A program made the translations under genes and the position numbers. Below are positions 14,840 to 29,535 of a stretch of 40,868 bases of DNA, piece by piece (positions within the stretch are counted from its first letter, which is position 1; each line of letters starts with the position of its first letter). The notes under the pieces are model-generated. The model was not told where the DNA came from, did no database searches, and saw only the letters and a list, made by a program, of their open reading frames with translations. The stretch covers positions 1 to 40,868 of the forward strand of contig JAITGS010000057.1 of the NCBI GenBank assembly GCA_031280435.1, read 5' to 3'. This DNA comes from Tannerellaceae bacterium. GTDB lineage: Bacteria > Bacteroidota > Bacteroidia > Bacteroidales > Tannerellaceae.

Positions 14840-14866
14840 ACTACCTGATTTTTTTTGTTTATAAGG

Positions 14867-14874: not shown

Positions 14875-14991
14875 CTGAAACGAGGCATAAGTCCGGAGGC
14901 CGGCCCCCTGCGGCGGAAAACAGGCCCCGGCCGAGGCCCCTCTCCCGCCTCAACCAATCGAAAAGGCCTCCGAAAAAAAAATCGTCACCTA

Positions 14992-15048: not shown

Positions 15049-15603
15049 ATGCAATCTGAAATCAACATACCAGCAATGAACACACAGGCGGCCCAACGGA
15101 CGCCGGGTGAGTTAAGCACATTAATATCAGCACACATTATCCAAAACACAGCTACAAAAGTTTTAACATCCACTTACGTAGAAGCCAACTCCTTGACTTT
15201 CCCTTTGCACAGCTGTTACGGTCCAAGGTCTACGGAAAGCCGGCAGCCGGTTGCGGAGGGTTTTTTTATACGTCACAGTAGTATGATGCCGCGAGGCATT
15301 GTTGATAAATTATTAATGTTAGGCGTGCTCCGGCATCAGCAGCTCCTTGCTAAGGGGAGCCGTGGCCGGAGCCTTTTTTGGTTTATTCAAAAGGGAAAAC
15401 TTGCCTACGCGAACGGGCGAGTTTTTCCTTCTTTTTTGTTGCCGGTGTTGGCTAAGTTTTTCGGAGCTCCGAAAACCTTGCGCGGAAAGTCGCTGGAGTT
15501 TTTCGGAGCTCCGAAAAACTTGCGCGGGAAGTTGATGGAGTTTTTCGGAGCTCCGAAAAACTGCTTTTACGATCCTTATTATAAACTAATTCAAAATTTT
15601 TAA
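15049..15603 (+). CDS. Leader ORF of doubtful coding status, containing 14-residue repeats
   Basis: Open for 184 codons from ATG 15049 and ending five bases before the DUF6261-like start. Its C-terminal part encodes a 14-residue repeat, FFGAPKNLRGKLME and variants, because the DNA repeat period of 42 is a multiple of three. Against a real protein: the middle is low in domain-like character, a terminator-like hairpin with a T6 run lies inside it, and the repeat unit is a perfect DNA palindrome. In favour: it stays open for 555 bases and could be translationally coupled to the next gene. No family is recognised. Confidence 0.3.
   Translation: MQSEINIPAMNTQAAQRTPGELSTLISAHIIQNTATKVLTSTYVEANSLTFPLHSCYGPRSTESRQPVAEGFFIRHSSMMPRGIVDKLLMLGVLRHQQLLAKGSRGRSLFWFIQKGKLAYANGRVFPSFLLPVLAKFFGAPKTLRGKSLEFFGAPKNLRGKLMEFFGAPKNCFYDPYYKLIQNF
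15327..15379 (+). terminator. Terminator-like hairpin in the leader
   Basis: GCTCCGGC (15327-15334) pairs perfectly with GCCGGAGC (15365-15372), with an inner stem of GCTCC against GGAGC, and is followed by a run of six T (15374-15379). It lies about 350 bases after the promoter and about 230 bases before the DUF6261-like start. It would end a short non-coding RNA or act as an attenuator for the gene. Confidence 0.55.
15456..15561 (+). repeat. Array A: 42-bp tandem repeat with 22-bp perfect palindromes
   Basis: Copies begin at 15456, 15498 and 15540, exactly 42 bases apart; the third is truncated after its palindrome. Each starts with GTTTTTCGGAG followed by its exact reverse complement (the first copy has one base changed at the right end), then a linker like TTGCGCGGGAAGTTGATGGA. 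A degraded earlier copy may begin at 15421. The array ends 48 bases before the DUF6261-like gene. Array C at the right edge of the window shares the GAAGTnnATGGAG and GCTCCGAA segments. Confidence 0.85.
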
Positions 15604-15608
15604 TCGCA

Positions 15609-16478
15609 ATGGGAATCATTAAATCTCACAGTAAGTTATTGTACAACACTGACAATGCACAGTTCTTGCAGTTCTTTTATAACCTTGTTATAACTATTGC
15701 CGGGCAGGTGACGAGTATTCCGCAGCTTACGGGCTTGTGGAATGCCATCAAAAATGGAACGCAGCGGCTCGACGATAGCTTTAAATGGCCGGCAAAGTCG
15801 CCGGATACGCGCAAACTTGTGGCTCTCGACCTGCAACGGGTGGGCTTGTTAACCATGATCTTTAATCCTATTAAGGACGCCGCCAAATATGCGGTTGATC
15901 CGGATGTTAAAGAATCGGCCGAAACACTGCTGGATCAGGTGGAAAACTATTCGGATACTAAAGAGCTGGCCTACGAAGGCAAAACTTCCATGATCACCAA
16001 CTTTGTTCAGGAGCTGGAAAAGCTTGAAAACAACATTCACATAACCCGCCTTGGCGTGGCGGCTAATCTCGCTACCCTCAAGGCAAAAAACAGCGAGTTC
16101 GAACAGCTCTATATCACCAGAAGCGAGGTGCAGTACACCCACACGGTTACCGGAACAACCACCAAACTGAGAGTGCAGCTTGTGACCGCTTTCAACAATT
16201 TCGTAACCGCTCTGGAAGGCTTGCTGCTGATGGAGACGGACCCGGCCGTTATCGGCGAGCTGAACGTGATTGCTCTTAAAATCAATGCCGAAATAGTTAA
16301 GGCCACCGCCGTACTCGACCGCCACCTGGGCATCACCGCTTCGGGCAACAGCAATAACACTCAAACCCCCGATATAACCAACCCTGCGCCTCCGAATATC
16401 CCGCCGCAACCGCCGTCGAACACTCCTCCCGGAACCGGGCCCGTGGATCCGAACGAGCACCCGCCCGCAGGAGAGTAA
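15609..16478 (+). CDS. DUF6261-like helical protein with proline-rich tail (copy 1)
   Basis: A 289-residue protein without signal peptide or membrane segment. Residues 1-245 are predicted to be mostly helical and follow the plan I associate from memory with DUF6261 of Bacteroidetes: LLYNTDNAQFLQFF near the start, VTSIPQLTGLWNAI, a central SAETLLDQVENYSDTKELAYEG, then LGVAANLATLKAKNSEF. The same landmarks recur in order in the protein at 28717-29535, so the two are distant paralogs. The tail (about 246-289) is Pro/Asn-rich and probably disordered. Function unknown. The gene follows array A; like its paralog it is directly preceded by a tandem array of 41-42-bp units. Confidence 0.7.
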   Translation: MGIIKSHSKLLYNTDNAQFLQFFYNLVITIAGQVTSIPQLTGLWNAIKNGTQRLDDSFKWPAKSPDTRKLVALDLQRVGLLTMIFNPIKDAAKYAVDPDVKESAETLLDQVENYSDTKELAYEGKTSMITNFVQELEKLENNIHITRLGVAANLATLKAKNSEFEQLYITRSEVQYTHTVTGTTTKLRVQLVTAFNNFVTALEGLLLMETDPAVIGELNVIALKINAEIVKATAVLDRHLGITASGNSNNTQTPDITNPAPPNIPPQPPSNTPPGTGPVDPNEHPPAGE

Positions 16479-16838
16479 AAAAACGCGCCAAATAACCGGG
16501 CAGCGGAGAGGTGGTTTTGTACGGTTTCCACGGTTCGTTTTAATAGTTGTTTTAATTTAATAATTCAGGCTCCGTTGCCGCTTTTTTCCGAGTAGGGCTA
16601 CGTAATAATATGGGGGATTTAATCAGTTATAATGGAAAATGGAATCTACTAAGTGCCGAATGGCCCGAAAGGGCTTGATTTTTATGACGACGGCTTGCAA
16701 TGCAGGCCGGGCTCGCAATACAGGTCATTCCCCTGAATCCGGGAATGATTTGCTTTGCAGGGAGGCCTCTCAAATCGCCCCTTCTTAGCTAAAATATTAT
16801 TTGCCGAATAATCCGAATCCAGACCGTAGAGCTTAAAC
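16479..16838. other. Intergenic strip with short hairpins
   Basis: No gene is seen in these 360 bp. GCCC-GAAA-GGGC at 16663-16674 followed by TTGATTTTT could be a weak terminator for the DUF6261-like transcript. TCATTCCC at 16725-16732 pairs with GGGAATGA at 16741-16748 and recalls the core of the nested palindrome at 4849. A TATTATTTG at 16795-16803 is one base off the -7 consensus spacing and may serve the next gene. Confidence 0.4.
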
Positions 16839-19400
16839 ATGAACGCTATAAAATCCATGAAGATCCTGGCAGTTTTGCTCATAGCCTTTGCGCTGCAAGC
16901 CAAGGCTGAGGACGCTTGGGGAGGCCTCTATTTCCGCTCATTCGAAGTGAACAAAGACAGCCGGACGCGACTGCAGCTCACGCCCGACCGGCCTATGAGC
17001 CTTCCGGGGGGATTCACGCTCAGGTTCGACTTTAAAATACGCCCGGAACACGAAGTTTTCGGATATATCTTCAGGATAATAGGCAATGAGAAAACCAACA
17101 TCGACCTTATATCCAATTCCACGCAATACGATAATATAGTTCTGGTGGTAGATAACCGCACTTTCATTGAGTTCAGCCTCAACGAGCTGCCCGCACCTAC
17201 AACTCAATGGACGCAGGCCGTAATCACGGTTGACACCAGGCGCGAAAGGCTGGAATTTACCTTGGGCGACCTGCAGAAATCGGCCACCTGCGACAACATC
17301 AGCGGACTCAACAAATTTGATATACACTTCGGAGGAAACGACCATCCCGTGTTCGGAACAAGCGACGTGGCGCCCTTCCTGCTGCGCGACCTGGAGCTGG
17401 AAGGAGCACGCAACAACCGCCCGCTGCTATTCTGGAAACTGTCGCGGCACCGCGCCGACGCCGTTTACGACGAATACGAAAACGCCCGCGCCGCCGTGAC
17501 CAATGCCGCATGGGAAATAAACCGCCACTCGCAATGGGAAAAGCTGCGGACGCTTGAAATCGACAGCCGATACCCCAAAATCGCCTTCAACCGAAACCGT
17601 AAGGAGGCATACATTGTGGGCCGCGAATCTATATACATATATAATATGGCAGCGGACAGGGTTGAGGTCATGCCATTCAGGCAAGGCCTGCCTCTCAACA
17701 TTGAGCCCAACCAGATGTTTTACGATGCCGAGTCGGATTGCCTGATAATGTATGAATTCGACACGCAGAAGGTGATTACTTTCAGCTTCGCAACGCAGTC
17801 GTGGAGCAATACCGACGGCAGAATTCAGCCCCCGCCGCGCTACCGGCATCACAACAAGTGGTACGACCGGCGCACTGGCCGGGCCTACATGCTGGGCGGA
17901 TACGGCTTCCACCTCTATTCGGCCCTGCTGCAATCTTTCGACGGCCGGAACCAATGGGAGAGTGTCGACCTGGCCGACGATTTTCCGCCGCGATACCTGG
18001 CCGCCATGGGGGAGTACGCCGACAGTCTGCTGCTCTGCTTCGGCGGCTACGGGAGCGTGTCGGGCCGCCAGCACGAGGCTCCGCACAACTATTACGACCT
18101 CTACGTGCTGAATCCGGCAACCCGCACGATCCGGAAGCTGTGGGAGCTCGCCAGCGTCGACGAGGCCTTCGCCAATGCCGGCTCCCTGATAGTGAATCGC
18201 AGCGCCCGGGCCTTCTACACGCTCTCTTACCCAAACAACGTTTACGAAACTCGCGCCACCCTGCACGAATATCAGATCGATGCGCCCGGCTATCGCAAGC
18301 TGGCCAACGCCATCCCCTTCCTCTTCAACGACGAGGAATCCTTCGGCGACCTGTTTATGCCGCAGGACAGCTCTGCCATCTACGCCGCCCTGTCGAACTC
18401 TACGCCAACGGGCAGCGTCCTCAACTTCTACTCCATAGCCTATCCGCCGCTGAGCGTTGACGATACCCTCCAGGCTGCCCCGGCCGAACCATGGTCTGAT
18501 GTTCTCAGCAAGTATTTGGCCGTACTCGCACCGGCGCTCGTCATCATCGCAGCCGGCATAGCGGTAGTGCTGAAGAAGCGCCGCAGCAAGTCAGCCCTCG
18601 AACCTGTCGAAGCCGAGACGGATACGGTGCCCGAAATGCCGGACAGCATAGCCGGCCCTGCCATCAACTTGCTGAACAACTTCCGGGCCCTCGATGCGCA
18701 AGGCGGCGACGTCACCCACCTTTTCTCGCCCACAAGCACGCAGATCTTCCTACTCATATACTTCAAAACCGTTTACGACAAAACCGGAATCACCTCCAAC
18801 GAGCTCCAGCAGATGTTCTGGCCCGACAAAGACTATGAGAGCGCGCAAAACAATCGCAATGTTTATTTCACCAAACTCCGCTCCGTACTGAGCTCCATGG
18901 GCAACGTGCGAATCGACCGCCTGAACAACTTCTGGGTCTTGGCCTACGACGCCAGGAAAATCCACAGCGACTATACTCAGGTGATGCACAACCTGCGCCG
19001 GATGCAGAACAAAGATGGAGCCGGCAAAGATCTGCTGCGCGAAACCCTCCGGCTAATCAACAAAGGCAAACTGCTCCCCTTCCTCAAGGCCGACTGGCTC
19101 GACCACTACAAAACCGACTATGCCAACACCATAATCGAATCCCTAACCCAAATCTCCGAACATCCCGGCATACGCAACGACAACCAGCTCCTCCTCCAAG
19201 TGGCCGACGCCATCCTGATGCAAGACGAAATAGAAGAGTTCGGCATACGCCTCAAATGCAGCGTCCTCTACAAGCTGGGCAAAAAGCAGCAAGCCATGCA
19301 ATGCTACGACAAGTACGCCGAAACCTACCAGGCGCTGCTCGACGTACAACCGAACTTTAGCTTCAGAGAGGTCAGGAAAGGCGGATTGGGAGAGGCCTAA
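16839..19400 (+). CDS. One-piece transmembrane regulator: LamG/Kelch-like sensor, winged-helix output
   Basis: An 853-residue protein. Signal peptide about 1-23 (the ATG at 16857 is an alternative start). Residues 27-200 look like a LamG/concanavalin-type sandwich (FTLRFDFKIRPEHEVFG, WTQAVITVD). Residues about 235-550 contain Kelch-like blades (KWYDRRTGRAYMLGGYGFH, DSLLLCFGGYGS). A single membrane segment lies at about 560-580, followed by KKRRSK as a cytoplasmic anchor. Residues about 630-705 resemble an OmpR/SARP-type winged helix (TSNELQQMFWPDKDYESAQN, then VYFTKLRSVLSSMG), and 720-845 are TPR-like helices as in BTAD domains. The topology suggests periplasmic sensing and direct transcriptional output with no phosphorelay. 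The ligand is unknown, perhaps glycan. The nearby SusC/SusD locus lacks its own regulator, but a link is only inference. Confidence 0.75.
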   Translation: MNAIKSMKILAVLLIAFALQAKAEDAWGGLYFRSFEVNKDSRTRLQLTPDRPMSLPGGFTLRFDFKIRPEHEVFGYIFRIIGNEKTNIDLISNSTQYDNIVLVVDNRTFIEFSLNELPAPTTQWTQAVITVDTRRERLEFTLGDLQKSATCDNISGLNKFDIHFGGNDHPVFGTSDVAPFLLRDLELEGARNNRPLLFWKLSRHRADAVYDEYENARAAVTNAAWEINRHSQWEKLRTLEIDSRYPKIAFNRNRKEAYIVGRESIYIYNMAADRVEVMPFRQGLPLNIEPNQMFYDAESDCLIMYEFDTQKVITFSFATQSWSNTDGRIQPPPRYRHHNKWYDRRTGRAYMLGGYGFHLYSALLQSFDGRNQWESVDLADDFPPRYLAAMGEYADSLLLCFGGYGSVSGRQHEAPHNYYDLYVLNPATRTIRKLWELASVDEAFANAGSLIVNRSARAFYTLSYPNNVYETRATLHEYQIDAPGYRKLANAIPFLFNDEESFGDLFMPQDSSAIYAALSNSTPTGSVLNFYSIAYPPLSVDDTLQAAPAEPWSDVLSKYLAVLAPALVIIAAGIAVVLKKRRSKSALEPVEAETDTVPEMPDSIAGPAINLLNNFRALDAQGGDVTHLFSPTSTQIFLLIYFKTVYDKTGITSNELQQMFWPDKDYESAQNNRNVYFTKLRSVLSSMGNVRIDRLNNFWVLAYDARKIHSDYTQVMHNLRRMQNKDGAGKDLLRETLRLINKGKLLPFLKADWLDHYKTDYANTIIESLTQISEHPGIRNDNQLLLQVADAILMQDEIEEFGIRLKCSVLYKLGKKQQAMQCYDKYAETYQALLDVQPNFSFREVRKGGLGEA

Positions 19401-19458
19401 GGTGAAATAGACTCCGCCACAAGAAAAATCCAAGATTTATTTGTCTACAACAAAAAAA

Positions 19459-19482
19459 GCAGGTACTGCTACCCGCCTTTTT
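19459..19482. terminator. Bidirectional terminator between convergent genes
   Basis: GCAGGTA-CTGC-TACCCGC (one mismatch) is followed by T5 on the plus strand and, read from the other side, by T7 on the minus strand. It would stop both the regulator gene and ahpF. Confidence 0.7.
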
Positions 19483-19531
19483 CCTGATAACCTTTTGAAT
19501 TGTGGAGAAGGTTAGTTTTTACACGCAAGGT

Positions 19532-21073
19532 TCAATTTTCTGCAATCATCAGCTCAGTGAATGCCGTCAGCGCACCTTTGGCGCCTTCACCCATAGAGAC
19601 TATTATCTGCTTATAAGGAACAGTCGTTACGTCGCCAACGGCATAAATTCCCGGTCGGTTTGTATGGCAGCGCTCGTCGACCTCTATTTCGCCAAAGCGA
19701 TTTGTTGATACCACATCGCGGAATTTGGCGCTGTTGGGCGCAAGGCCAATCTGCACAAATATGCCGTCGAGATCGACCTGCGTTTCTTCATTTGTCTTAC
19801 GGTTTTTCACGCGGACAGCCGTAACTTTCTCGCCGTTGCCAACGACTTCTGTTGTTTGCGATGAGAGAAATATCTGCACGTTAGCGAGCGAGCGGGCTTT
19901 CTTCTGCAAGACTTCGTCGGCCTTCAGTTCGTCCAAAAATTCATAAACCAGGACTTCGGAGCAGATGCCCGCAAGGTCTATGGCCGCTTCTATTCCCGAA
20001 TTGCCTCCGCCAACGACAGCCACGCGCTTGCCTTTGTAGAACGGCCCGTCGCAATGAGGGCAAAAAGCCACTCCGCGACCGATGTACTCGGCTTCGCCGG
20101 TGACGTTCAGCCGTCGCCAGCTTGCACCCGTAGCGATGATGACTGCCGGAGCGATCCAGCGTTCTCCTCCTACGGCGGTAACAACCTTCAGGCGATCGTC
20201 CTCCTGTATGTTTTCAACTATGCGATGCTCAAAAAGATCGATAGGGTATGCCTGCAAATGGGATTTAAGATTAACCGCCAGGGTCTCGCCTGTGATGTAC
20301 GGCACCGAGATGAAGTTCTCTATTCCCACAGTTTCCTTTACCTGTCCTCCTATACGTTCGGCAATGAGCGCAACTTTCAATCCTTTCCTCGCCAGATAAA
20401 TGGCAGCCGTCGATCCCGAAGGCCCGGCTCCTATTACAATAGCCTCATACGTTTTTGCCTCCGCACCCGATTCGCTTCCGTATATGGTTTCGAGTTTGCT
20501 TAGCAATTCGCCCAGGCCGGCTCTTCCGGCATGAATCAGTTTGCCGTCGGCATAAACCGAGGGAACAGCCTGGATGCGCAGCGCGTCGGCCTCTTCTTGG
20601 AACAGGGCTCCGTCAACCATTTCATGGCTGATATTATCGTTCAGGATGGCCATCACGTTCAGGGTTTGTACCACGTCGGGGCAATTGGTGCAGGTGAGGG
20701 AAACGTATGTTGTCAGCTCAATTTTTCCCTTAAGGCCGGCGATTCTTTGGCGTATACCTTCGTCGGGCAGGTTTTTACCTTTCCCATCGCTATTCAGTAC
20801 GGCGAGCAGTAGAGATGAAAACTCATGTCCGTTGGGAACACCTCTGAATCGGATGCCGATATCCCTCCCGTTTTTCAGTATCGAAAAACCAAGCACGGGG
20901 CCTTCCGACGTCAGCACATTAACTTTCTCGGAACAGTCGGCAATGTCGGTCAGCAAGTCAATCATCTCCGAACCACTCTCGTGCTGAGGCGGAATGATTG
21001 CACTAAAAATATATTCGCCTTCCAAAAAGGCGAATATATTTTTTACTTGATCTTTAGTTCCAAGGTCGAGCAT
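19532..21073 (-). CDS. ahpF: Alkyl hydroperoxide reductase subunit F
   Basis: A 513-residue flavoprotein of normal AhpF length. The N-terminal double-thioredoxin-fold domain has the redox pair C128/C131 in TCTNCP. FAD binding starts at GAGPSG (215-220). The thioredoxin-reductase-like pair is C338/C341 in FCPHCDGP, followed by NAD(P)H-binding VVGGGNSG. It reduces the AhpC disulfide with NADH. The start codon overlaps the ahpC stop (TGATG), so translation is coupled. Confidence 0.97.
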   Translation of the reverse strand: MLDLGTKDQVKNIFAFLEGEYIFSAIIPPQHESGSEMIDLLTDIADCSEKVNVLTSEGPVLGFSILKNGRDIGIRFRGVPNGHEFSSLLLAVLNSDGKGKNLPDEGIRQRIAGLKGKIELTTYVSLTCTNCPDVVQTLNVMAILNDNISHEMVDGALFQEEADALRIQAVPSVYADGKLIHAGRAGLGELLSKLETIYGSESGAEAKTYEAIVIGAGPSGSTAAIYLARKGLKVALIAERIGGQVKETVGIENFISVPYITGETLAVNLKSHLQAYPIDLFEHRIVENIQEDDRLKVVTAVGGERWIAPAVIIATGASWRRLNVTGEAEYIGRGVAFCPHCDGPFYKGKRVAVVGGGNSGIEAAIDLAGICSEVLVYEFLDELKADEVLQKKARSLANVQIFLSSQTTEVVGNGEKVTAVRVKNRKTNEETQVDLDGIFVQIGLAPNSAKFRDVVSTNRFGEIEVDERCHTNRPGIYAVGDVTTVPYKQIIVSMGEGAKGALTAFTELMIAEN

Positions 21074-21639
21074 CAGATTTTTCCTACAAGGTCAATACTC
21101 GGCTTGAGCGTAGCGTCGCCCTTTTTCCACTTAGCCGGGCATACTTCGTTCGGATGCGAAGCCACGAATTGGGCAGCCTCCGTGATGCGAAGCAATTCCT
21201 CGGCATTTCTGCCGATGCCGTTGTCATGAATCTCGGCAACCTTAATTTTACCTTCGGGATTGATCAGGAAAGTGCCGCGATATGCGCGTCCGTCTTCCTC
21301 AATCAATACGCCGAATGCGCGGCTTATTGTGAAAGTTGAATCGGCCAACATAGGATATTTGATCTTGCGGATCGTTTCCGATGCATCATGCCATGCTTTG
21401 TGCACGAAGTGAGAATCGGTACTTACAGAATAGATTTCCACACCCATTTGTTGGAATTTTGCATACTGATCAGCCATATCACCAAGCTCTGTCGGACAGA
21501 CAAAAGTAAAGTCGGCAGGGTAAAAGAAAAAGATAGCCCATTTGCCTAAAACATCTTTCTCGGTGACGGTTTTGAAACTTCCGTTGTGATACGCCTGTAC
21601 ACTGAAGGCAGGCAATTGCGAATTAATAATAGTTTCCAT
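21073..21639 (-). CDS. ahpC: Alkyl hydroperoxide reductase subunit C (peroxiredoxin)
   Basis: A 188-residue typical two-Cys peroxiredoxin: peroxidatic C48 in FTFVCPTEL and resolving C167 in NEVCPAKW. It reduces hydrogen peroxide and organic peroxides and is recharged by AhpF, encoded next. The frame is open for nine more codons, but the METIINSQLPAF start gives the family's normal length and leaves a leader of about 39 bases after the promoter identified at 21684-21714. Confidence 0.97.
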   Translation of the reverse strand: METIINSQLPAFSVQAYHNGSFKTVTEKDVLGKWAIFFFYPADFTFVCPTELGDMADQYAKFQQMGVEIYSVSTDSHFVHKAWHDASETIRKIKYPMLADSTFTISRAFGVLIEEDGRAYRGTFLINPEGKIKVAEIHDNGIGRNAEELLRITEAAQFVASHPNEVCPAKWKKGDATLKPSIDLVGKI

Positions 21640-21683
21640 GTTGAATTGTTTTTTTAAGTGTGACAATTATTTTTTATTCGATG

Positions 21684-21714
21684 CAAATGTAGGCCGTGCA
21701 ACTATGCTTGTCAA
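21684..21714 (-). promoter_or_regulatory. ahpCF promoter
   Basis: On the minus strand TTG (TTGACA context) at 21714-21712, a 20-base spacer, then TACATTTG at 21691-21684: a full Bacteroidetes promoter. The direct repeat GCAACTATGC (21698-21707 and 21716-21725, 18 bases apart) overlaps the spacer and the -33 side and may be an operator. Confidence 0.65.
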
Positions 21715-21735
21715 TGCAACTATGCCTATGTAATG

Positions 21736-21750
21736 ATAGAACTGCTCTAT
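21736..21750 (-). promoter_or_regulatory. OxyR-like half-site upstream of ahpC
   Basis: ATAG-N7-CTAT at 21736-21750 fits half of the OxyR pattern (ATAG-N7-CTAT-N7-ATAG-N7-CTAT). It lies about 22 bases upstream of the -33 element, where an activator would sit. Another CTAT occurs at 21726-21729, but with N6 rather than N7 spacing. Activation of ahpCF by OxyR is known in Bacteroides; this exact site is inference. Confidence 0.4.
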
Positions 21751-21870
21751 TATTCCGTATGTTTGGGGGAAATTTTCAGTTTCTCTAACGATAAAATCTT
21801 CTTCCTGTTAAGTTGTTGGGAGCTCCCGCCGGTTCGGCAGAGCAAGTCCCTGAAAAGATTTCGTCAGGCC

Positions 21871-22066
21871 ACTAAAGAATAGCTTCTTTGCCTCCGGGAT
21901 TCCTGTCCGGCCGCCAAAGAATAGCTTCTTTAGTATATTTTGAGAGGGATTGTGCGAGAAATCGGTGCAGAATTATTGATTTCTCGTGGAGCAGGCTTTT
22001 ATTTTCCCTCGTATTACACGAATCATAGCGAAGGTTCTTTTGCCTGTTCGCCGAGATTCGTGTAAT
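21871..22066. repeat. 42-spaced AAAGAATAGCTTCTTT pair and two inverted repeats
   Basis: AAAGAATAGCTTCTTT occurs at 21874-21889 and 21916-21931, 42 bases apart. The sequence before the first copy (GATTTCGTCAGGCCACT) partly matches the linker before the second (GATTCCTGTCCGGCCGCC). The pair also folds as one long hairpin with ACTAAAGAA/TTCTTTAGT outer arms. Further on, CGAGAAATC pairs with GATTTCTCG (21955-21963/21978-21986) and ATTACACGAATC pairs with GATTCGTGTAAT (22013-22024/22055-22066). No gene is seen between 21640 and 22104. Confidence 0.6.
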
Positions 22067-22104
22067 CAAGGGGAAATTGGTGCCGGAAGGCGATACTTAT
22101 TTTA

Positions 22105-23424
22105 TTAAAGTCCGCTGAAGTCAACGTCGTTGAACAGCAGCGAAGGAATTTTCCATGAGCTGCTTTCGCGCGGATCGTTGCCGGCTTCGGCAAGATTATT
22201 CCAAAGGGAGAGCATGTTGCCGGTGATGTTCATCTCATTAACAGGCTGGGTTAATTTGCCCTTTTCGATGAGAAATCCTTCGATGCCATATGAAAAATCG
22301 CCTGTGCTGCTGTTGCTGTTTCCACCATTGAAGCCGCTCACAAAAACACCTTTGTCAACGCTTGCTATCAGCTCGTCGGTATTCTTCGTGCCGAGTTGGA
22401 GTTGCAGTATGGAGGGAGATTCGACGGTTGGCGCGGCGTCCAGCTTGTTGGCATAATAGGTGTCGATGTAGTAGGTTTTGAGAACGCCGTTTTCGAACAC
22501 GGGCATCTTGCGGGTGGCAACGCCTTCGCCGTCGAAGTAGCGTGCGCCTATGGTTTTCAGTTGATGCGGATTGTCGATGAGCGTGATGTTGTCGCCCAAA
22601 ACCTTTTGATCGAGCTTGTTGAGCAGGAATGAATCTTTTTGCTGGATAGACGAACCGTAGATGGCTCTTATCAGCGGCGAGATAAGGCGGGTGGAGTTGA
22701 GGTTGTCAACCACCATGCGGTATTTCCCGGAAGCAGCCTTCTTTTGTCCCAGCTTTTTAATTGTACGTTCGAGGGCTTTTGTGCCTATGTCCGTCTTGAT
22801 AAGTGTATCGAAAAAGAGCGAGCTGTCGTACCAGTATGATTCCGGACGTGCGTCGCCGTCTCCTTTAATACTTACGGAAGCAACGAGAGAGAAGGATGTG
22901 CGCGAGGTCTCTGCTTCGAGCCCATTGCTGGCGATGAGGTACCTGTTGATCAGTTCGTCGCTGAATGAGGAGTTCGGAGAGATGGTGCGCGGATCCTTGT
23001 TCATCATTTCTTCACAAACGCTCATGGCGAGTTTCACTTTGTCGTCAGGCTGAAGCGACTCAAAGGCCGGATCGCGCTGCTGCAAGTCGGGTTGTCCGCC
23101 TTTGTAGTAGCGATCGGAAGCGGGCAGGGTGCGGGCTTTATCCTCGGCAAGGAAGCGGGTTGATTCTATTCCGTTGCGGATAAATCGTTCGAGCTCCTTT
23201 TTGTCGAGTCGATTAGTTGAAAACGAACCGTATCGGCCGTCGACAAAGAGTTGGATTCGCAAGCTGCTTTCAGAGGCTTGCGTGAGGCGGTCGACTTTCA
23301 TTTCCCTGATTTCGAAGGAGCTGTTGGTTCCGCTTGCAAGTACAACGCGGGCGGATTGGCATCCGTTTTTGATGGCGAAATCGAGGGCCCATTGGGCGAG
23401 TTTTTTCTGTTCCTGTGTTATCAT
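22105..23424 (-). CDS. TldD/PmbA-family protein, PmbA (TldE)-like subunit
   Basis: A 439-residue protein from ATG 23424, two bases after the tldD-like stop. It has the TldD/PmbA fold landmarks (ESSLRIQLFVDGRYGSFSTN near the N terminus, GVLKTYYIDTYYANKL and GDFSYGIEGFLIEKGKLTQPV near the C terminus) but no HExxxH, so it is the non-metal partner. TldD and TldE form a heterodimeric protease that trims peptides. The frame is open 32 codons upstream into the tldD-like gene; the inner start is chosen for spacing and lack of homology-like sequence before it. The start MITQEQKKLAQW has no signal peptide, in contrast to the partner. Confidence 0.88.
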   Translation of the reverse strand: MITQEQKKLAQWALDFAIKNGCQSARVVLASGTNSSFEIREMKVDRLTQASESSLRIQLFVDGRYGSFSTNRLDKKELERFIRNGIESTRFLAEDKARTLPASDRYYKGGQPDLQQRDPAFESLQPDDKVKLAMSVCEEMMNKDPRTISPNSSFSDELINRYLIASNGLEAETSRTSFSLVASVSIKGDGDARPESYWYDSSLFFDTLIKTDIGTKALERTIKKLGQKKAASGKYRMVVDNLNSTRLISPLIRAIYGSSIQQKDSFLLNKLDQKVLGDNITLIDNPHQLKTIGARYFDGEGVATRKMPVFENGVLKTYYIDTYYANKLDAAPTVESPSILQLQLGTKNTDELIASVDKGVFVSGFNGGNSNSSTGDFSYGIEGFLIEKGKLTQPVNEMNITGNMLSLWNNLAEAGNDPRESSSWKIPSLLFNDVDFSGL

Positions 23425-23426
23425 AT

Positions 23427-24959
23427 TTAACTTTCTCCTCCTACTGTAAGTTTGCTGACTAAGGCCGATGGCATTCCGCAGGTGACGGGGCATGATTGTC
23501 CGTCTTTGCCGCAAGTCCATGTGCCGTTGTCCATTTCATAGTTGTTTCCTACCATAATTATATCGGCGAGGGCTTTCGGACCGTTGCCTATGATGTTGAT
23601 GTCTTTGATGGGCTGCGTCAGCTTGCCGTCTTCAATAAGGTATCCGTTTTTAACGAAGAATGTAAAGTCGCCTGCGCCTATTTGTACCTGTCCGTTGGTG
23701 AAATTGGCGGCATATATGCCTTTCTTCACTTCGGAAATCATGTCGGCCTCGCTAACGTTGCCTGCTTCCATGTAGGTCGATCGCATGCGCGGAATGGGCA
23801 TGAGGCGGAAGGATTGGCGGCGTCCGTTGCCTGTTGAAGGGATGCCGTAATGGCGGGCGCTGATGCGGTCGTGGAGGTAGCTCGTGAGAACGCCTTCGCG
23901 AACGATGTATGTTTTCTGTCCCTCAACGCCCTCGTCGTCTATATTAATCGAGCCGCGATTGAAGGGGATTGTACCATCGTCGACGACATTGATGTTTTCG
24001 TTGCAAACTTTCTTGTTCCATTTGTCGGAGAAGATAGAAATGTTCTTGCGGTTAAAATCAGCCTCGAAAGTATGACCGATAGCCTCGTGAAGCAGTATTC
24101 CCGATCCTCCTGCTCCCATCACTACGGGCATCTCTCCACCTTTGGGCTTGACCGCCTTGAAGAGAATGGAAGTTTTCTCAACCACCTCGCCGGCAATGGT
24201 GTCGACAATCTCATCGTTGAGAAATTCAACTCCCATGCGGTAAGCGCGAGCAGCATACGAATTTTCGATCCTGTCGTTTTCCTGCATTATGCACGAAGCC
24301 GAGAATGTAATCATCGGGCGATAATCGTAATAAGCAACGCCTTCTGAGTTGCAGAAGAAGATGTGCGAAGTGGTATCGTTCATCCCGGCGTTTACTTTAA
24401 TCACACGCTTGTCGAGAGCGAAAATCTTGTCGTTGAGAGCTTGCAGATAGGGAGCCTTCTCCTTAGTAGAGACGGTATCCCATGGAGTCTGCACCGCGTA
24501 GAAGCTACCCGGAATCTTCTCCGTTAGATTAACCGGCTCCTTCTGAGAAGCTCCGTCGGCAATGCGGGCCGCAGTGCGTGCAGCTTTCAGCATCTCGTCG
24601 AGGGTAATATTCTCGATGTAGGCATAACCCGTTTGATCGCCCGATAAAACTCTAACTCCCATTCCGAAGTCGATGTACGACGAAGCGCTGTTAACCGCTC
24701 CGTCTTGCAGTCCAATCGAATTGTAGAACGAGTGTTCAAAGAAAAGTTCGGCATAGTCGCCTCCCTTCTCAAGCGCGGTAGCAAGTACCCTTTTAAGATC
24801 ATTATCAGTTACCTGAAAATGATTCATTGCCATGGCTACGCCTATTGCCGCGGCGGTTGCGTCGCCGGAGTTACATCCTCCGATGAGCGCAGGCGCAGCT
24901 AATGATCCGAGCATGACCATGCCTCCTGTCTTGATAAAATCACGTCTGTTGTAATTCAT
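23427..24959 (-). CDS. tldD: TldD-family metalloprotease with Tat-type signal
   Basis: A 510-residue TldD-like protein with the zinc motif HEAIGH (H291, E292, H296) in GSGILLHEAIGHTFEAD, so it is the catalytic subunit. It begins MNYNRRDFIKTGGMVMLGS, a twin-arginine signal, and then ALIGGC (Cys29), which could serve as a lipobox. Export to the periplasm is therefore likely, unlike the cytosolic E. coli TldD. The PmbA-like partner follows two bases downstream without an evident signal, which raises the question of how the pair meets. Confidence 0.9.
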   Translation of the reverse strand: MNYNRRDFIKTGGMVMLGSLAAPALIGGCNSGDATAAAIGVAMAMNHFQVTDNDLKRVLATALEKGGDYAELFFEHSFYNSIGLQDGAVNSASSYIDFGMGVRVLSGDQTGYAYIENITLDEMLKAARTAARIADGASQKEPVNLTEKIPGSFYAVQTPWDTVSTKEKAPYLQALNDKIFALDKRVIKVNAGMNDTTSHIFFCNSEGVAYYDYRPMITFSASCIMQENDRIENSYAARAYRMGVEFLNDEIVDTIAGEVVEKTSILFKAVKPKGGEMPVVMGAGGSGILLHEAIGHTFEADFNRKNISIFSDKWNKKVCNENINVVDDGTIPFNRGSINIDDEGVEGQKTYIVREGVLTSYLHDRISARHYGIPSTGNGRRQSFRLMPIPRMRSTYMEAGNVSEADMISEVKKGIYAANFTNGQVQIGAGDFTFFVKNGYLIEDGKLTQPIKDINIIGNGPKALADIIMVGNNYEMDNGTWTCGKDGQSCPVTCGMPSALVSKLTVGGES

Positions 24960-25008
24960 TTATTATATGTATTATGAAATGTATGCGTTTATAAAGCCAA
25001 TCTGAAAA

Positions 25009-25485
25009 CTACTGGAGTCTGGATTTGCTGCAAAGCGAAACAATATAAGCGTCGCTCTTAAGCGCTTCCCTGTTTTGACTCGTGAGGCTTACTCCCAGGC
25101 CTTCAATAACTCTTATCAAACTGTCTACGGCGAGCAACGTACGCTCGTCGGGCAGTTGCCTCTCGCCGGATGCCTTTCTATTTTCGCGAGATTTGCGTAG
25201 CCGGGCGTTATCGTCTTTCGTTTGCCTGTTAATTGAGTTGATGATGCGCTTTTGTTCGCGCGTTGGAGAAAAATTCGTTAGTTTCTTCTTTATCTTTTCT
25301 ATTACCGATTCGTCGTAATTGGGCGATAAATCCTTTGTGCGTTGAACATTGTCGAGGTAAAGGATTTTAGATCGAAAGTCGGCTCTCAAGTCGCCCTGAA
25401 GAGAGTTAATGTAAAATTCTGCGGTTCTGTTCTTAATGTATCGTTTGATTTTCCCGAAGTCAATTGCTTTTTTATTTGCAGCCAT
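25009..25485 (-). CDS. Hypothetical charged helical protein
   Basis: A 158-residue protein rich in Lys, Arg, Asp and Glu with no signal peptide or membrane segment. It contains FSPTREQKRIINSINRQTKDD and a C-terminal hydrophobic helix (LLAVDSLIRVIEGLGVSL). No family is recognised. It lies 49 bases before the tldD-like gene and may be co-transcribed. A likely TAAATTTG -7 box stands about 37 bases upstream of its start, which supports it being real. Confidence 0.65.
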   Translation of the reverse strand: MAANKKAIDFGKIKRYIKNRTAEFYINSLQGDLRADFRSKILYLDNVQRTKDLSPNYDESVIEKIKKKLTNFSPTREQKRIINSINRQTKDDNARLRKSRENRKASGERQLPDERTLLAVDSLIRVIEGLGVSLTSQNREALKSDAYIVSLCSKSRLQ

Positions 25486-25521
25486 GATGCGTTTTTCATT
25501 ATATATTATTTACTCTTTCTG

Positions 25522-25549
25522 CAAATTTAAAATATCTACATTCTAACAA
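25522..25549 (-). promoter_or_regulatory. Promoter of the hypothetical gene and perhaps tldD/pmbA
   Basis: On the minus strand TTG at 25549-25547, 17-base spacer, TAAATTTG at 25529-25522. The -7 box is exact; the spacer is two to three bases short of usual. Confidence 0.4.
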
Positions 25550-25567
25550 TATGGAACTATCGGCCTT

Positions 25568-26461
25568 TTAATGTTTTTTGGGAAAATCACCCTGCCGCCC
25601 CGCCATCCACACCCCGCCAAGTATGCAAATCGCCCCAACTACCGCAACCGGAGTGATAACCTCGCCAAGTATCAGCCGCGAAGCCGCAAGCGTAACTATC
25701 GGAGTAAGGTAAATATAATTAGTGGTACGGATAGCCCCCAGGTTCTTCACCGCAACGTTCCACAAGACATAACACAGCATCGAAGCCAGCAAACCAAGGA
25801 ACAGCAGGTTCCCTATAACCTCCGGACTCCGCAGCGCCTCCCCAGCATGCGGCGAAGGCCAGGCGATAAGTATCGGAACCATCGTAACAAGCCCGTAGAA
25901 AAAAACCTTCCGCGTGATAAACAAAACCGGATACCGCAAGTCGAGCCGCTTCAGCACAATCGTATACACGCCCCACAAAGTAGCCGCCGCAACCGTAAGC
26001 AAATCGCCCACAGGATTCAACTTTAATATAAAGCTACCGTTGTACACAACGCAGGCAACCCCTCCCAAAGCCATAAGCGAACCATATGCCAGCCAACGCC
26101 CAACCCGCTCGCCCTTAACCCAAACATGCGACATCAAAGCCGTTATCAGCGGAGCCGTACATATAATAAGCGAAACGTTCGACGCCAAGGTATAGCGCAA
26201 CGCCGTATTCTCCGCCAAAAAGTACAGCGAGCCGCCCGTAACGCCCATAACAGCCAGCAGCAACTCATCCCTTTTAGTTGCGGCAAACAACATTTTCGGA
26301 CTCGCAACCCATATCGCCCCATAGGCAACAGTAAAACGCAAAACAAATATGCCGGCCGGATCAAGACCGCGCATAAGCAAGACCTTTGTGGAAACAAACG
26401 TTATTCCCCAAACAACCGTAACAAACAAAGCCAACAAATGATATAAGCCTTTTCCTTTCAT
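25568..26461 (-). CDS. EamA-family drug/metabolite exporter
   Basis: A 297-residue inner-membrane protein with about ten hydrophobic segments arranged as two EamA repeats (first repeat from LLALFVTVVWGITFVSTK, second from PVGDLLTVAAATLWGVYTI). The family exports amino acids, nucleosides or other small metabolites; the substrate cannot be told. The start at 26461 (MKGKGLYHLL) is chosen because the longer open frame adds 32 residues outside the family pattern and overlaps the divergent promoter region. Divergent from the GH3 gene. Confidence 0.92.
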   Translation of the reverse strand: MKGKGLYHLLALFVTVVWGITFVSTKVLLMRGLDPAGIFVLRFTVAYGAIWVASPKMLFAATKRDELLLAVMGVTGGSLYFLAENTALRYTLASNVSLIICTAPLITALMSHVWVKGERVGRWLAYGSLMALGGVACVVYNGSFILKLNPVGDLLTVAAATLWGVYTIVLKRLDLRYPVLFITRKVFFYGLVTMVPILIAWPSPHAGEALRSPEVIGNLLFLGLLASMLCYVLWNVAVKNLGAIRTTNYIYLTPIVTLAASRLILGEVITPVAVVGAICILGGVWMAGRQGDFPKKH

Positions 26462-26569
26462 ATTGATCTCAAAAAACGGCCGTAAATGTACGCCATGCAC
26501 AACGATATCCCAAATAAGCGACACCCCCCGAACGCCGGCCCGCACCCATCCACCCAAAAAAACTTTCGC

Positions 26570-26577
26570 TACATTTG
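26570..26577 (+). promoter_or_regulatory. -7 box for the GH3-family gene
   Basis: TACATTTG, an exact TAnnTTTG, ends 22 bases before the ATG at 26600. No TTG is present at the -33 position. Confidence 0.4.
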
Positions 26578-26599
26578 CGCATCATACATTGTTAAAACT

Positions 26600-28117
26600 A
26601 TGGATATCCTCACGAAATCGCTATCCCAGCTATTCATCCCACGCCAAAAGGCAATGGATCTTATCACCCTCAACGCCGCCGACATTCAGCAGCGACAACT
26701 GTTCAGCCTCCTGCGCAAAGCCGCCGACACCGAATGGGGCCGAGCCCACGATTTCAAATCCATACGATCATATCGAGACTTTACGCAACGCATCCCGCTG
26801 CAATCATACGACAGCCTCAAGCCACGGATAATGAAAATGATAAACGGCGAGAAAAACATCCTGTGGCCCGGACAAGTAAAATGGTTCGCCAAAAGCAGCG
26901 GAACCACAAGCGATAAAAGCAAATTCATCCCCATGACCCGCGAAATACGAGCCGCACAATACCAAGGCGGCTTCGACGCCGTAGCAGCCTACCTCCGCCA
27001 TAACCCAGGCAGCCGCTTCTTCTCAGGCAAAGGCCTCATCCTCGGCGGAAGCCACAGCCTCTCGCCACTCAACCGCCAGGCACATTGCGGCGACCTCTCA
27101 GCCGTGCTCATCCAAAAGCTCAACCCCCTTGTAAACCTTATCAGAGTGCCCGGCAAACGCATAATACTAATGGACGAATGGGAGCAGAAAATAGAAGCCA
27201 TCGTAAACAGCGCCTCTAACAAAAACGTATGCAGCCTCTCCGGCGTACCCTCCTGGATGCTCGCCCTCATCAAAGCCGTGCTACGCAAAACCGGGCGCCG
27301 AACCCTTTCCGACGTATGGCCAAACCTCGAAGTATACTTTCACGGAGGAATAAGCTTTGAACCCTACCGCGACCAATACCAAACCCTTATCCCATCGCCC
27401 ACAATGCGCTACGTAGAAACCTACAACGCCTCCGAAGGCTTTTTCGGCCTGCAAGACGACCCCGCCTCCCCCTCGCTGCTCCTCATGCCCGACTACGGCA
27501 TCTTCTACGAGTTTGTACCACTCGCCGAAGTCGAATCCAGCAATCCCCCCGCCGTAGCCATCGACGGCGTTGAAACCGACAAGAACTACGCCCTTATAAT
27601 CACCACCTGCGGAGGCCTCTGGCGTTACGCCATAGGCGACACCATCCGATTCACCTCCCTTAACCCCCACAAATTCGTTATAACCGGGCGCACCAAGCAT
27701 TTCATCAACGCCTTTGGCGAAGAGCTCATGGTTGACAACGCCGACCAGGCCATCAGCCAAACATGCCGCCAGACCGGAGCCCGCGTAAAAGAATACACCG
27801 TAGCCCCGCTCTTCATCCTCCACCTCGGCAAAGGCCTCCACCAATGGTTTATCGAATTTGAAAAGCCCCCCGCCTCGGTGCCCGGCTTCGAGTCGCTGCT
27901 CGACCAAAACCTCCAGCAGCTCAACTCCGACTACGAAGCCAAGCGATACAAAAACATCGCCCTCATGCCCCTGCAAATCACCATCGCCGCCGAAGGATCC
28001 TTTTACAACTGGCTCCGCCTCAAAGGCCGCCTCGGCGGTCAGCACAAAGTTCCCCGCCTAAGCAATTCACGGCTATTTATCGACGAGCTGATGGCTATCA
28101 GCCGGGATAGAAAATAG
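26600..28117 (+). CDS. GH3-family (auxin-responsive-type) acyl-adenylating enzyme
   Basis: A 505-residue member of the GH3 family (PF03321), ATP-dependent acyl-adenylating and amide-forming enzymes. Visible landmarks: KWFAKSSGTTSDKSKFIP (ATP-binding P-loop-like motif, about residues 94-111), MRYVETYNASEGFFGLQDD, and WRYAIGDTIRFTSLNPHKFVITGR linking to the C-terminal domain. Bacteroidetes carry GH3 proteins of unknown substrate. The chosen ATG follows an exact -7 box; the earlier in-frame Met at 26486 would place the promoter inside the gene. Codon use is markedly C-rich at third positions compared with neighbours. Confidence 0.9.
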   Translation: MDILTKSLSQLFIPRQKAMDLITLNAADIQQRQLFSLLRKAADTEWGRAHDFKSIRSYRDFTQRIPLQSYDSLKPRIMKMINGEKNILWPGQVKWFAKSSGTTSDKSKFIPMTREIRAAQYQGGFDAVAAYLRHNPGSRFFSGKGLILGGSHSLSPLNRQAHCGDLSAVLIQKLNPLVNLIRVPGKRIILMDEWEQKIEAIVNSASNKNVCSLSGVPSWMLALIKAVLRKTGRRTLSDVWPNLEVYFHGGISFEPYRDQYQTLIPSPTMRYVETYNASEGFFGLQDDPASPSLLLMPDYGIFYEFVPLAEVESSNPPAVAIDGVETDKNYALIITTCGGLWRYAIGDTIRFTSLNPHKFVITGRTKHFINAFGEELMVDNADQAISQTCRQTGARVKEYTVAPLFILHLGKGLHQWFIEFEKPPASVPGFESLLDQNLQQLNSDYEAKRYKNIALMPLQITIAAEGSFYNWLRLKGRLGGQHKVPRLSNSRLFIDELMAISRDRK

Positions 28118-28202
28118 CCGCGAACCCGCGCGATAAAAAAAGACGCCGGCCATATCCTCGCCGTCAGGATTTGGCCCCGGCAATCCGGCGCCGTATCATA
28201 AC

Positions 28203-28626
28203 TGTTGCAATATCGCCATGCAGTTGCGCGAAGGTTTGCACAATGTTGCAATATCGCCGTGCAACTGCGCGGATATTTGAACAATGTTGTAATATCTCCA
28301 TGCCATTGCGCGAATGATGAAACAATATTGCAATACCGCCAGGCAATAGCGTAGATAATTGCACAATATTGTAATAGCCTCATGCAATTGTGTAGACGCT
28401 TACAAAATATTGTAATATCCACATGCAATTGCGTAGCAACTTTCACAATATTAAAATATAGTAAAGCAATAGCGTGGATACTTAATCAATATTGCAATAC
28501 AGTCAAGCAATTGCGTAGATATTTTCACAATATTGAAATGTAGCATATCAATTGCGTGGAGATTTAAGCAATATTGCAATCTTGTCAGGCAATCGCGTGA
28601 AGCTTTATGCAATATTGCAATGCCGT
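28203..28626 (+). repeat. Array B: ten 41-bp tandem units plus a partial, strictly in phase
   Basis: Units start at 28203, 28244, 28285, 28326, 28367, 28408, 28449, 28490, 28531, 28572 and, truncated, 28613: every step is exactly 41. Each unit opens with T(A/G)TTGnAAT, has GCAATTGCGTG or a close variant at unit positions 18-28, and ends CAA. The stretches between these blocks vary from unit to unit. The two blocks are short palindromes (ATTGCAAT, CAATTG). The array ends about 29 bases before the -33 element of the next gene, so it lies upstream of the promoter. 41 bases is about four helical turns, placing all sites on one face of the DNA. The remaining 28118-28202 holds nothing recognised. 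Confidence 0.9.
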
Positions 28627-28654
28627 ACAAAAAAAATCGCAGTGCAAAAAACTC

Positions 28655-28685
28655 TTGACGATATGAAAAACAGATTATATCTTTG
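28655..28685 (+). promoter_or_regulatory. Promoter of the second DUF6261-like gene
   Basis: TTG at 28655-28657, 20-base spacer, TATCTTTG at 28678-28685. The predicted start near 28692 gives a leader of about 25 bases to the ATG at 28717. Confidence 0.7.
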
Positions 28686-28716
28686 CCGCATTATAAATTT
28701 GATACGCACATATACT

Positions 28717-29535
28717 ATGCAGAAGCCCATTAAGACAACTATCAAGACGCAACTAAGGTTATTATATACCTCCGAGCACATCGGATTCTTTGCCGGCGAT
28801 ATTGTAGTCGGAATCAATCCGGTTATAGCGTCGGTACCAAGCCTTCAGCCCTTATATACAGCGCTGCAAAACAAGGTTGCAACCGAGGAAGCCCTGTTTA
28901 AGAAGATCCTGGCATCGTCGTTAACTCCCGAGCTTAGCATGCTTCACAGGGAGCGGATTTCGGCCATTGGGGTGATCCAGGCTACTGTTCGCCACGCCCA
29001 ATTTTCACAAATTGAGGATATCCGTAAGGCTCACCATATCCTTACGCCGCTGGTTAAGACGTATAAAAAGGTCAAGAAGGCCACCTATCCCGGCGCTAGC
29101 GGCATGATCGAAAATCTTATTGCCGATTGCAGGAGCGCCGAATACTGGCCGCACGTACAGGCCCTCGGAATGGCTCAGCTGATTAACCGCACGGGCGATG
29201 CGAACGATCTGTTCAGTAAGAAATTCATGGAGCGGGCGGTTGACCACGAGATTATTGCAAGGCAGGGTAAGGTGTCGCTTGTGAAGCCCGAAGTTAACAA
29301 CGCGTTTATGATCTTCCTCGACGGCGTTAACACTGCCTATATCATCAACGAGCTTGGGGCAAATGATCCAGCGCTGAAAGAAAATCTCACGAAAATTATT
29401 GATGTGGTTAACGCCGCCGTTACCGAGATGAAGAATATCCTGGCCCGGCGCGGGCATCATCGCGCATCGCGGCCGCCGGGCTCCAAGGCTTCGGGCGCGG
29501 GGCGGACGGGCGCCAAGCCTCAATCGGGTAAATAA
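28717..29535 (+). CDS. DUF6261-like helical protein with basic tail (copy 2)
   Basis: A 272-residue protein starting MQKPIKTTIKTQLRLLY. The frame is open to 28552, but that part lies in the repeat array and across the promoter, so the inner ATG is chosen. Landmarks shared with the paralog at 15609 in the same order: LLYTSEHIGFF, VASVPSLQPLYTAL, YKKVKKATYPGASGMIENL, LGMAQLINRTGDANDLF and VNNAFMIFL. The tail (about 247-272) is rich in Arg, Lys, Gly, Ser and Pro, so it could touch nucleic acid. No signal peptide or membrane segment. Function unknown; the family name is from memory of the pattern. Confidence 0.7.
   Translation: MQKPIKTTIKTQLRLLYTSEHIGFFAGDIVVGINPVIASVPSLQPLYTALQNKVATEEALFKKILASSLTPELSMLHRERISAIGVIQATVRHAQFSQIEDIRKAHHILTPLVKTYKKVKKATYPGASGMIENLIADCRSAEYWPHVQALGMAQLINRTGDANDLFSKKFMERAVDHEIIARQGKVSLVKPEVNNAFMIFLDGVNTAYIINELGANDPALKENLTKIIDVVNAAVTEMKNILARRGHHRASRPPGSKASGAGRTGAKPQSGK

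Follow-up and report, generated by a model that had tools for sequence, protein, structure and literature searches.

In a 40,868-nt stretch of DNA from a Tannerellaceae bacterium (GenBank assembly GCA_031280435.1, contig JAITGS010000057.1, hereafter the window), which is one whole contig (C127) of the genome designated G000 here, two genes encode proteins of the DUF6261 family and each is preceded by an array of tandem DNA repeats. Analysis of all DUF6261 genes of this genome and of relatives up to another class showed that the pairing of gene and array is not chance. We propose, with a probability of roughly 0.6 from sequence comparison, that DUF6261 proteins bind their own arrays both in cis and in trans, in the manner of a plasmid centromere such as sopC, and that the pairs have spread in a way resembling that of repetitive extragenic palindromes and their associated transposases (REP-RAYT).

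Tandem arrays upstream of DUF6261 genes

The two gene-array pairs of the window and a third array at its end consist of the following features, in which periods were determined by Tandem Repeats Finder (TRF).

15455..15562, + strand: array 1, upstream of DUF6261 gene 1; period 42, 2.6 copies, 93% matches
15457-15476, 15499-15518 and 15541-15560: palindrome TTTTTCGGAGCTCCGAAAAA of array 1, one per 42-bp unit, found by pattern search, unit 1 with one mismatch
15609..16478, + strand: DUF6261 gene 1 (copy D11), 289 aa; Pfam PF19775, E 3.8e-24
16437..16475, + strand: C-terminal tail of D11, GPVDPNEHPPAGE, carrying the shared tail motif
28203..28622, + strand: array 2, upstream of DUF6261 gene 2; period 41, ~10 degenerate units, 72-74% matches
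28678..28685, + strand: TATCTTTG, putative -7 element of the Bacteroidota type in the gap separating array 2 from gene 2, ending 31 nt before the ATG
28717..29535, + strand: DUF6261 gene 2 (copy D18), 272 aa; Pfam PF19775, E 9.2e-23
40781..40868, strand not assigned: array 3, a pair of palindromic 43-bp units where the contig ends; period 43, 2 copies

An earlier sequence-only reading of the window had placed arrays of 42 and 41 bases before the two genes, and TRF returned these same periods; both proteins belong to DUF6261 (85.8 and 81.3 bits for D11 and D18, gathering cut-off 27), with 24% identity to each other. The palindrome in the units of array 1 is 20 bp long and recurs at 42-bp spacing, and the units of array 2 have CAATATTG and GCAATTGCG-like cores. 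The same reading regarded array 3 as a relative of array 1, which has to be withdrawn: a BLAST of array 3 against the whole genome matched only array 3 itself and its own reverse strand. Its partner gene, if any, is off the contig.

The G000 assembly (3.06 Mb, 143 contigs, 83% complete) contains 44 DUF6261 matches, all above the family cut-off, and the DNA around all of them was analysed. Five copies were not judged, D09 and D23 being without a start and D04, D29 and D37 having less than 200 bp upstream. When an array was defined by a TRF score of at least 80 and a period of 20-22 or 38-45 within 700 bp upstream, 31 of the 39 genes with at least 500 bp upstream had one, with units of 40-42 bp or 21 bp. 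In 375 kb of control DNA from G000, an array was present at 41/246 other genes (Fisher p 1e-14 vs DUF6261) and, where the upstream gap measured 150 bp or more, at 37/86 (Fisher p 2e-4); this control DNA contained 58 arrays of the same periods away from DUF6261 genes. Arrays are thus common throughout the genome, yet DUF6261 genes stand out. The proposal of a two-part system was to fall if arrays were not enriched upstream of DUF6261 genes, or were equally frequent beside unrelated genes. Neither was found, but the frequency beside unrelated genes is considerable, and some of the arrays there belong to the same sequence families as the DUF6261-linked ones. On the downstream side (within 1.5 kb), non-coding 40-42-bp arrays were seen only at D01 among the 44 copies, at least 5 of which have less than 1.5 kb of downstream sequence.

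Another repeat was observed upstream of eight copies (D03, D05, D14, D19, D29, D32, D33 and D39; loci L033, L035, L043, L047, L056, L059, L060 and L065). It is dispersed, REP-like, non-tandem and ~130 bp long, with GATCGGAGATTCCCGCC and GCGGGAATGACC parts.

Pairing of gene and array in other genomes

DUF6261 was detected in all 17 same-genus genomes searched, with 2 to 40 matches each, so that copy number ranges from 2 to 44 per genome within one genus. In the sister species G009 (35 matches, of which 31 were parsed and four fragments dropped), arrays with a TRF score of at least 80 within 900 bp were sought at copies with at least 300 bp upstream, and the same rule was applied to the other relatives. 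An array was present upstream of 27/28 copies in G009, 17/22 copies examined in G010 (of 40 found), the one copy examined of 12 in G012, and the one copy each in G022 (another genus) and G025 (another family).

Of 345 genomes drawn from the phylum, 7 (our own included) have DUF6261, the other six (one of another family in the same order, four of another order and one of another class) providing 13 loci. By autocorrelation over lags 15-60 in the upstream 600 bp, the peak was at 41 or 42 in 11 of the 13, with an identity of at least 0.60 in 9, and the downstream 600 bp of the same genes gave 0/13 with a top lag of 41/42 at this identity. Among windows upstream of other genes, taken from five genomes with few or no DUF6261 copies, 1/150 reached this level at 41/42 (12/150 at any lag), and among random, mostly coding windows 0/600 did (8 at any lag). 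As the nine positive loci lie in another order of the class and in another class, and include all 5 copies of the single-contig genome G347, the pairing is old and not an artefact of assembly. The upstream tandem-repeat check suggested by the sequence-only reading, applied to the genome itself, the sister species, other families, another order and another class, bears out the core of its inference. The density of arrays in control stretches was 0-2.5 per 100 kb in G020, G011, G019 and G007 (0-9 DUF6261 copies) and 6-16 per 100 kb in G010, G009 and G000 (over 30 copies each).

Two kinds of DUF6261 gene lacking an array recur across genomes, judged by length and end only: one of ~245-255 aa (L129, L131, L134, L123 and L136) and the other of ~220-235 aa (L130, L132 and L128). 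They may represent the ancestral, non-amplified form of the family, and D44 of G000 may belong to the shorter kind.

Dispersed copies and joint divergence of the arrays

Copies of the arrays in trans were surveyed in 777 kb, about a quarter of G000, in which 123 merged arrays were found with periods of 41 (46 arrays), 42 (36), 21 (14), 40 (12) and a few others. These clustered into 19 multi-member families: ten mix DUF6261-linked and unlinked arrays, one consists of the two D01-locus arrays only, and the other eight lack a linked array within the 777 kb, two of them being made up of coding or 23/46-bp repeats. Low-complexity T/A runs may be what unites one large family. In a profile search, 13 of the 31 linked arrays had a cognate array in trans, compared with 0/31 in reversed sequence, and for a few of these (D06/D20 and D25/D42) a cognate is itself another DUF6261-linked array. 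The cognate of array 1 (G000:C111:1552-1781) has six palindromes at 42-bp spacing; its units are inverted (by eye), and ~70 bp separate its end from the start codon of another gene. Likewise, 90 kb of control DNA of G009 held twelve arrays, three of which (L248:6930, L250:1990 and L252:3126) match by eye DUF6261-linked arrays elsewhere in that genome, while one (L250:7486) just precedes a DUF6261 fragment at a contig end.

A separate class of arrays with a period of 23/46 bp and GATCCC or GATCGCC cores was also observed; the arrays found upstream of DUF6261 genes include none of this class:
L069:263-558, L074:13235-13352, L083:1822-1954 and L081:7096-7261: 23/46-bp arrays

Arrays are distinct between paralogues in G000, as the sequence-only reading had noted for the window. 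In order to compare orthologues, 20 reciprocal-best pairs were formed between G000 and G009 from the copies with arrays only (32 and 28, respectively). Among the nine pairs with at least 67% protein identity, the partner's array was the best match of 32 in six and the second or third in two, the remaining pair (N21/D28) having no array similarity; among the eleven pairs below 60% it was the best match in none (0/11). Matching of this degree was not reached in permutation (0/5000). For instance, the arrays of N01 and D20 both contain GCGATAATTATCGCGAGCCAT, and those of N15 and D31 both contain CGGATACACGTGTATCCGG. The earlier idea of a dispersed two-part system whose protein and array have diverged together is thereby supported, in combination with the upstream-array tests. 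The paralogues D12 and D20 are 86% identical with array cores that differ by eye. Most of the differences among the D12, D20 and N01 proteins lie within the N-terminal 55 residues and around residues 185-225, and they offer too few positions to map specificity residues.

The surroundings of these pairs varied. D01, D20, D25 and D31 have an array in common with their G009 partners and no shared flanking gene was seen, where for D01, D20 and D25 the available G009 flank amounts to 392-663 bp upstream and ~4.3 kb downstream. D38, D08 and D33 share genes with G009 on both sides; D33 and its partner are 55% identical in protein, with no array similarity. D11 has an orthologue in G009 (N24, 56-58% identical) with a downstream gene family common to both, and no array was seen at N24, whose contig ends 216 bp upstream. 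Part of the likeness between orthologous arrays is simple linkage, which does not explain the copies in trans.

A shared C-terminal tail

The motif DPxEHPxxGE lies at or near the end of 30 of the 44 proteins of G000, including proteins only ~25% identical overall, and 17 of 31 proteins of G009 carry another motif instead, INPxDLNPPxAGE; neither motif occurs in the other genome. Identity at codon positions 1/2/3 among 26 tails was 0.85/0.90/0.57, indicating that the amino acids of the tail are selected and that its DNA was not recently copied. DPxEHPxxGE was not found in other reading frames of the 777 kb. The simplest reading of these tails is that they probably serve one shared partner per genome. 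The sequence-only reading had given the two window proteins differing tails, which is correct within the window, D18 being without the motif; the tail of D11 is nevertheless of the kind common to 30 of the 44 paralogues.

In a class of 364-394 aa found in G010, G007 and G022 (loci among L120-L128, L137 and L140-L159), an extra and different C-terminal stretch replaces the short tail; one fragment of this class had no NCBIfam or PHROGs match. As to other families, no known one beyond DUF6261 was matched in Pfam, NCBIfam, PHROGs, PADLOC or PDB, and the nearest match to a nucleic-acid domain was one WHEP-TRS at E 0.16 in one member.

Promoter motif, palindromes and placement of the arrays

Of 42 copies, 26 have the motif TAnnTTTG, which we take to be the Bacteroidota -7 promoter consensus, with its end 5-80 nt from the start codon; 200 shuffles gave 1.9 such copies on average and 7 at most. 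In all 21 copies having both a motif and an array, the motif lies between array and gene. Deviations in the palindromic stems, counted on the gene strand, were 52 of the A-C type, 41 G-T and 67 other, with 10 compensated, so that no excess of G-U pairs is seen on that strand. Given the putative promoter between array and gene and stem mismatches free of RNA bias, double-stranded DNA is likely the recognised form. The earlier reading, which had left open whether the protein would bind DNA or RNA at its own sites, is hereby narrowed to DNA as the favoured form.

The palindrome score of 74 arrays was 5.73 vs 3.55 for shuffled consensus, and palindrome columns were more conserved (0.914 vs 0.871, p 7e-5). 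In the lag profile the maximum is at 41-42 and a smaller rise is seen at 20-21, corresponding to about four and two helical turns, respectively.

Of the 58 control arrays, 49 lie in gaps that could be classed, namely 11 convergent, 29 tandem and 9 divergent, compared with 9.9, 29.2 and 9.9 expected by length. Placement therefore follows intergenic length without promoter bias. This disfavours a promoter regulon and is in keeping with a structural or a selfish role. No neighbour recurs at the DUF6261 loci, the largest gene family adjoining 5/73 of them in two genomes; this family comprises open reading frames (ORFs) that resemble leucine-rich repeats by eye. ORFs of this kind were noted at L032, there with 63-bp coding repeats, and at other loci. 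The GH3 gene that precedes gene 2 was found in 15 congeners, five of which have other arrays near it. By tblastn, a D18-like gene was absent downstream of it in all 12 congeners with the full 1.5 kb (0/12). In G010 a more divergent DUF6261 gene is located at this site by its coordinates, showing that tblastn with D18 alone misses distant members.

Proposed mechanism and its rivals

We suggest that each DUF6261 protein would be a sequence-specific binder of double-stranded DNA that reads its own array, a row of often palindromic sites every 41-42 bp (four turns) or 21 bp (two turns). With sites at such helical spacing, copies of the protein could align on one face of the helix, and the palindromes would be consistent with binding as a dimer. 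The array beside the gene, being upstream of the promoter, would probably serve self-regulation, and arrays matching it in sequence at other chromosomal positions would be extra sites for the same protein. The short C-terminal tail, which follows a disordered-looking linker and is common to most G000 paralogues, would probably recruit one partner, whereby many protein-array pairs would act in a common process; most likely they would anchor or bridge chromosome loci in the way of a plasmid centromere complex. We consider binding of the protein to its array probable. A structural role on its own is a tentative proposal with rather less than even odds, and the odds are lower still for a combinatorial chromosome-organising or segregation system, in which dozens of distinct pairs, with an unrecognised DNA-binding fold, private addresses and a partner linked through the tail, would have acquired their specificities by duplication and joint divergence.

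Several observations weigh against binding in cis and trans. On the protein side, no known DNA-binding domain was detected in ten members run against Pfam at E of at most 1, and no PDB relative of DUF6261 was found. On the array side, eight of the 39 G000 copies have no array by threshold (D12, D17, D22, D32, D34, D40, D43 and D44); inspection by eye reveals 2-3 units at D12, D17 and D34, an array upstream of D32 has its end 617 bp from the gene, and D22, D40, D43 and D44 show none. Among relatives, just 4/9 copies in G007 and 0/8 in G001, G004, G011 and G019 have an array, and G001, with 7.2 arrays per 100 kb and 2 copies (28 kb, two arrays), runs counter to the trend in density. In the phylum draw 4/13 loci fall short, namely that of G269 (the genome of another family in the same order), one of G051, and the weak L282 and L284, the start codon of L282 being possibly misplaced. 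No trans cognate was found for 18 of the 31 linked arrays in the quarter of the genome examined, and no second copy of array 2 in the whole genome by BLAST; moreover, the array similarity between orthologues could be due, in part or entirely, to common descent of gene and array as a linked cassette. As for the motifs, 16 of the 42 copies, D11 among them, have no promoter motif, the stems show 160 pair-breaking deviations against 10 compensating ones, and the palindrome beats shuffles at p<=0.02 in only 29 of the 74 arrays taken singly.

The serious rival is that array and gene form a selfish cassette, mobile or amplifying and of little use to the cell, of which the dispersed arrays are non-autonomous copies and whose protein would help arrays to spread or persist. 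Copy number swinging from 2 to 44 within one genus would suit such an element, as would the four copies that keep their arrays without a shared flanking gene in the limited G009 flank, the GH3 site, where 12 congeners lack a D18-like gene and five congeners have other arrays, and the neutral tracking of intergenic space by the dispersed arrays; the coevolution of REP and RAYT offers a precedent (PMC2817692). We regard it as possible, if doubtful, since DUF6261 contains no transposase domain, no neighbour gene recurs, units such as D38, D08 and D33 can stay put between genes shared with G009, and the tail is under selection. Should the repeats instead be passengers of intergenic DNA that in this genus is prone to slippage and recombination, a by-product of wide gaps, their presence beside 37/86 other wide-gap genes would be expected; however, DUF6261 genes still exceed that level in G000 (p 2e-4), 17/22 and 27/28 copies have arrays in two other species, the same period is found upstream and not downstream of DUF6261 in another order and class, the periods are confined to 40-42 and 21 bp, and cognate sequences are shared in trans, which together make this explanation highly improbable.

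Two further alternatives concern what the array does. DUF6261 proteins might be ordinary transcription factors, with the upstream array as a self-regulatory operator and the dispersed arrays as operators of a regulon. The position of the array upstream of the promoter motif in 21/21 copies, and the trans copy of array 1 ending shortly before another gene, agree with this; on the other hand, the dispersed arrays show no preference for promoter-bearing gaps, and arrays reach ~15 units, which to our knowledge is unusual for operators, so that we think it unlikely. An RNA system like type III toxin-antitoxin, in which RNA of the array repeat restrains the protein, comes to mind from the toxI-toxN layout, a tandem repeat array just upstream of a protein gene, to which an array of such unit size just upstream of the DUF6261 gene bears resemblance. 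It has very little probability in our view: the promoter motif of the gene lies downstream of the array, the stems have no G-U bias, the trans copy of array 1 has inverted units by eye, the window arrays have no Rfam match, the two window proteins have none in PADLOC, and ToxN is not matched in Pfam.

Other features of the window

348-2165: group II intron; Rfam D1-D4 match at 348-459, catalytic-domain match at 2091-2165
821-2089: reverse transcriptase/maturase ORF, between the two Rfam matches
13988-14953: N6_N4 DNA methylase gene, near D11

The methylase gene was matched at E<=1e-50 in one of 17 congeners (G012), indicating that the stretch near D11 varies between species; used for an empty-site comparison, it offered a match in just this one. 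A plasmid or phage origin was considered by tblastn with D18 only, which gave no match in the plasmid or phage collection.

Comparison with known systems

In architecture, the closest known system is sopC (parS-F) of the F plasmid, with twelve 43-bp repeats and ten 16-bp inverted repeats bound by ParB (PMC6238139), and in plasmid centromeres the sites can be scattered or placed ahead of the operon (PMC5016525). The DUF6261 arrays share with sopC/SopB tandem direct repeats of nearly equal length, and differ in standing on apparently chromosomal contigs as dozens of distinct pairs per genome. No ParB match was obtained for DUF6261 (10 members, E<=1), and no ParA-like family recurs beside the 73 loci, where not all neighbours were run against Pfam and an ATPase at a single locus is possible. 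In archaeal SegAB, palindromic SegB sites are located upstream of the operon and at many scattered positions, with a chromosome-organising role (PMC12284271). SegB, a single ribbon-helix-helix protein that has an ATPase as its partner, uses 13-bp sites located for the most part within genes, whereas the DUF6261 arrays are intergenic and of many parallel specificities.

The replication iterons of plasmids, direct repeats of ~20-22 bp (two helical turns), lie close to a gene under autoregulation, as some of the arrays here do in period; DUF6261 differs in having no Rep domain match and dispersed arrays. ToxIN likewise has a repeat array upstream of a protein gene, from which DUF6261 is distinguished by an array upstream of the promoter motif, by the absence of an RNA signature and by cognate arrays in trans. 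The array downstream of a promoter that type III toxin-antitoxin would demand was seen in none of the 21 copies with both elements, a second promoter further upstream being possible. A CRISPR layout was not seen either: in the eight arrays inspected unit by unit, complete units follow one another with no unique spacers between them, cas genes not having been searched by name.

In titles and the opening lines of abstracts of the open-access literature, we found no description of such a gene-array system, and DUF6261 brought up only one paper, unrelated by its title and the start of its abstract; no such repeats are named in part of the text of a paper on a Tannerellaceae symbiont (PMC12483993). 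Since membership in ParABS and REP-RAYT fails on the protein and its neighbours or on the layout, we call the system categorically new, with the qualifications that binding is inferred and that the selfish element is a serious rival. If the proposal is right, the uncharacterised DUF6261 family would gain a function, the dozens of natural protein-DNA specificity pairs in each genome would make a recognition code and its evolution readable, and an unrecognised way of marking or folding bacterial chromosomes would come into view.

In evolutionary terms the closest relative is REP-RAYT, where a gene stands beside its own class of palindromic repeats, the same class is dispersed, and gene and repeat coevolve (PMC2817692). 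The layout of the DUF6261-array pairs is the same in these respects, with a repeat class dispersed in intergenic DNA (13/31 with copies in trans) that coevolves with the gene. The RAYT protein, a tyrosine transposase, is encoded between two inverted REPs, whereas domain scans of DUF6261 gave no tyrosine (HuH) transposase match, and its arrays are long, phased and tandem and lie on one side of the gene, upstream, without flanking by its own inverted repeats on both sides. Under the selfish reading, the DUF6261 pairs would thus be a transposase-free analogue of REP-RAYT.

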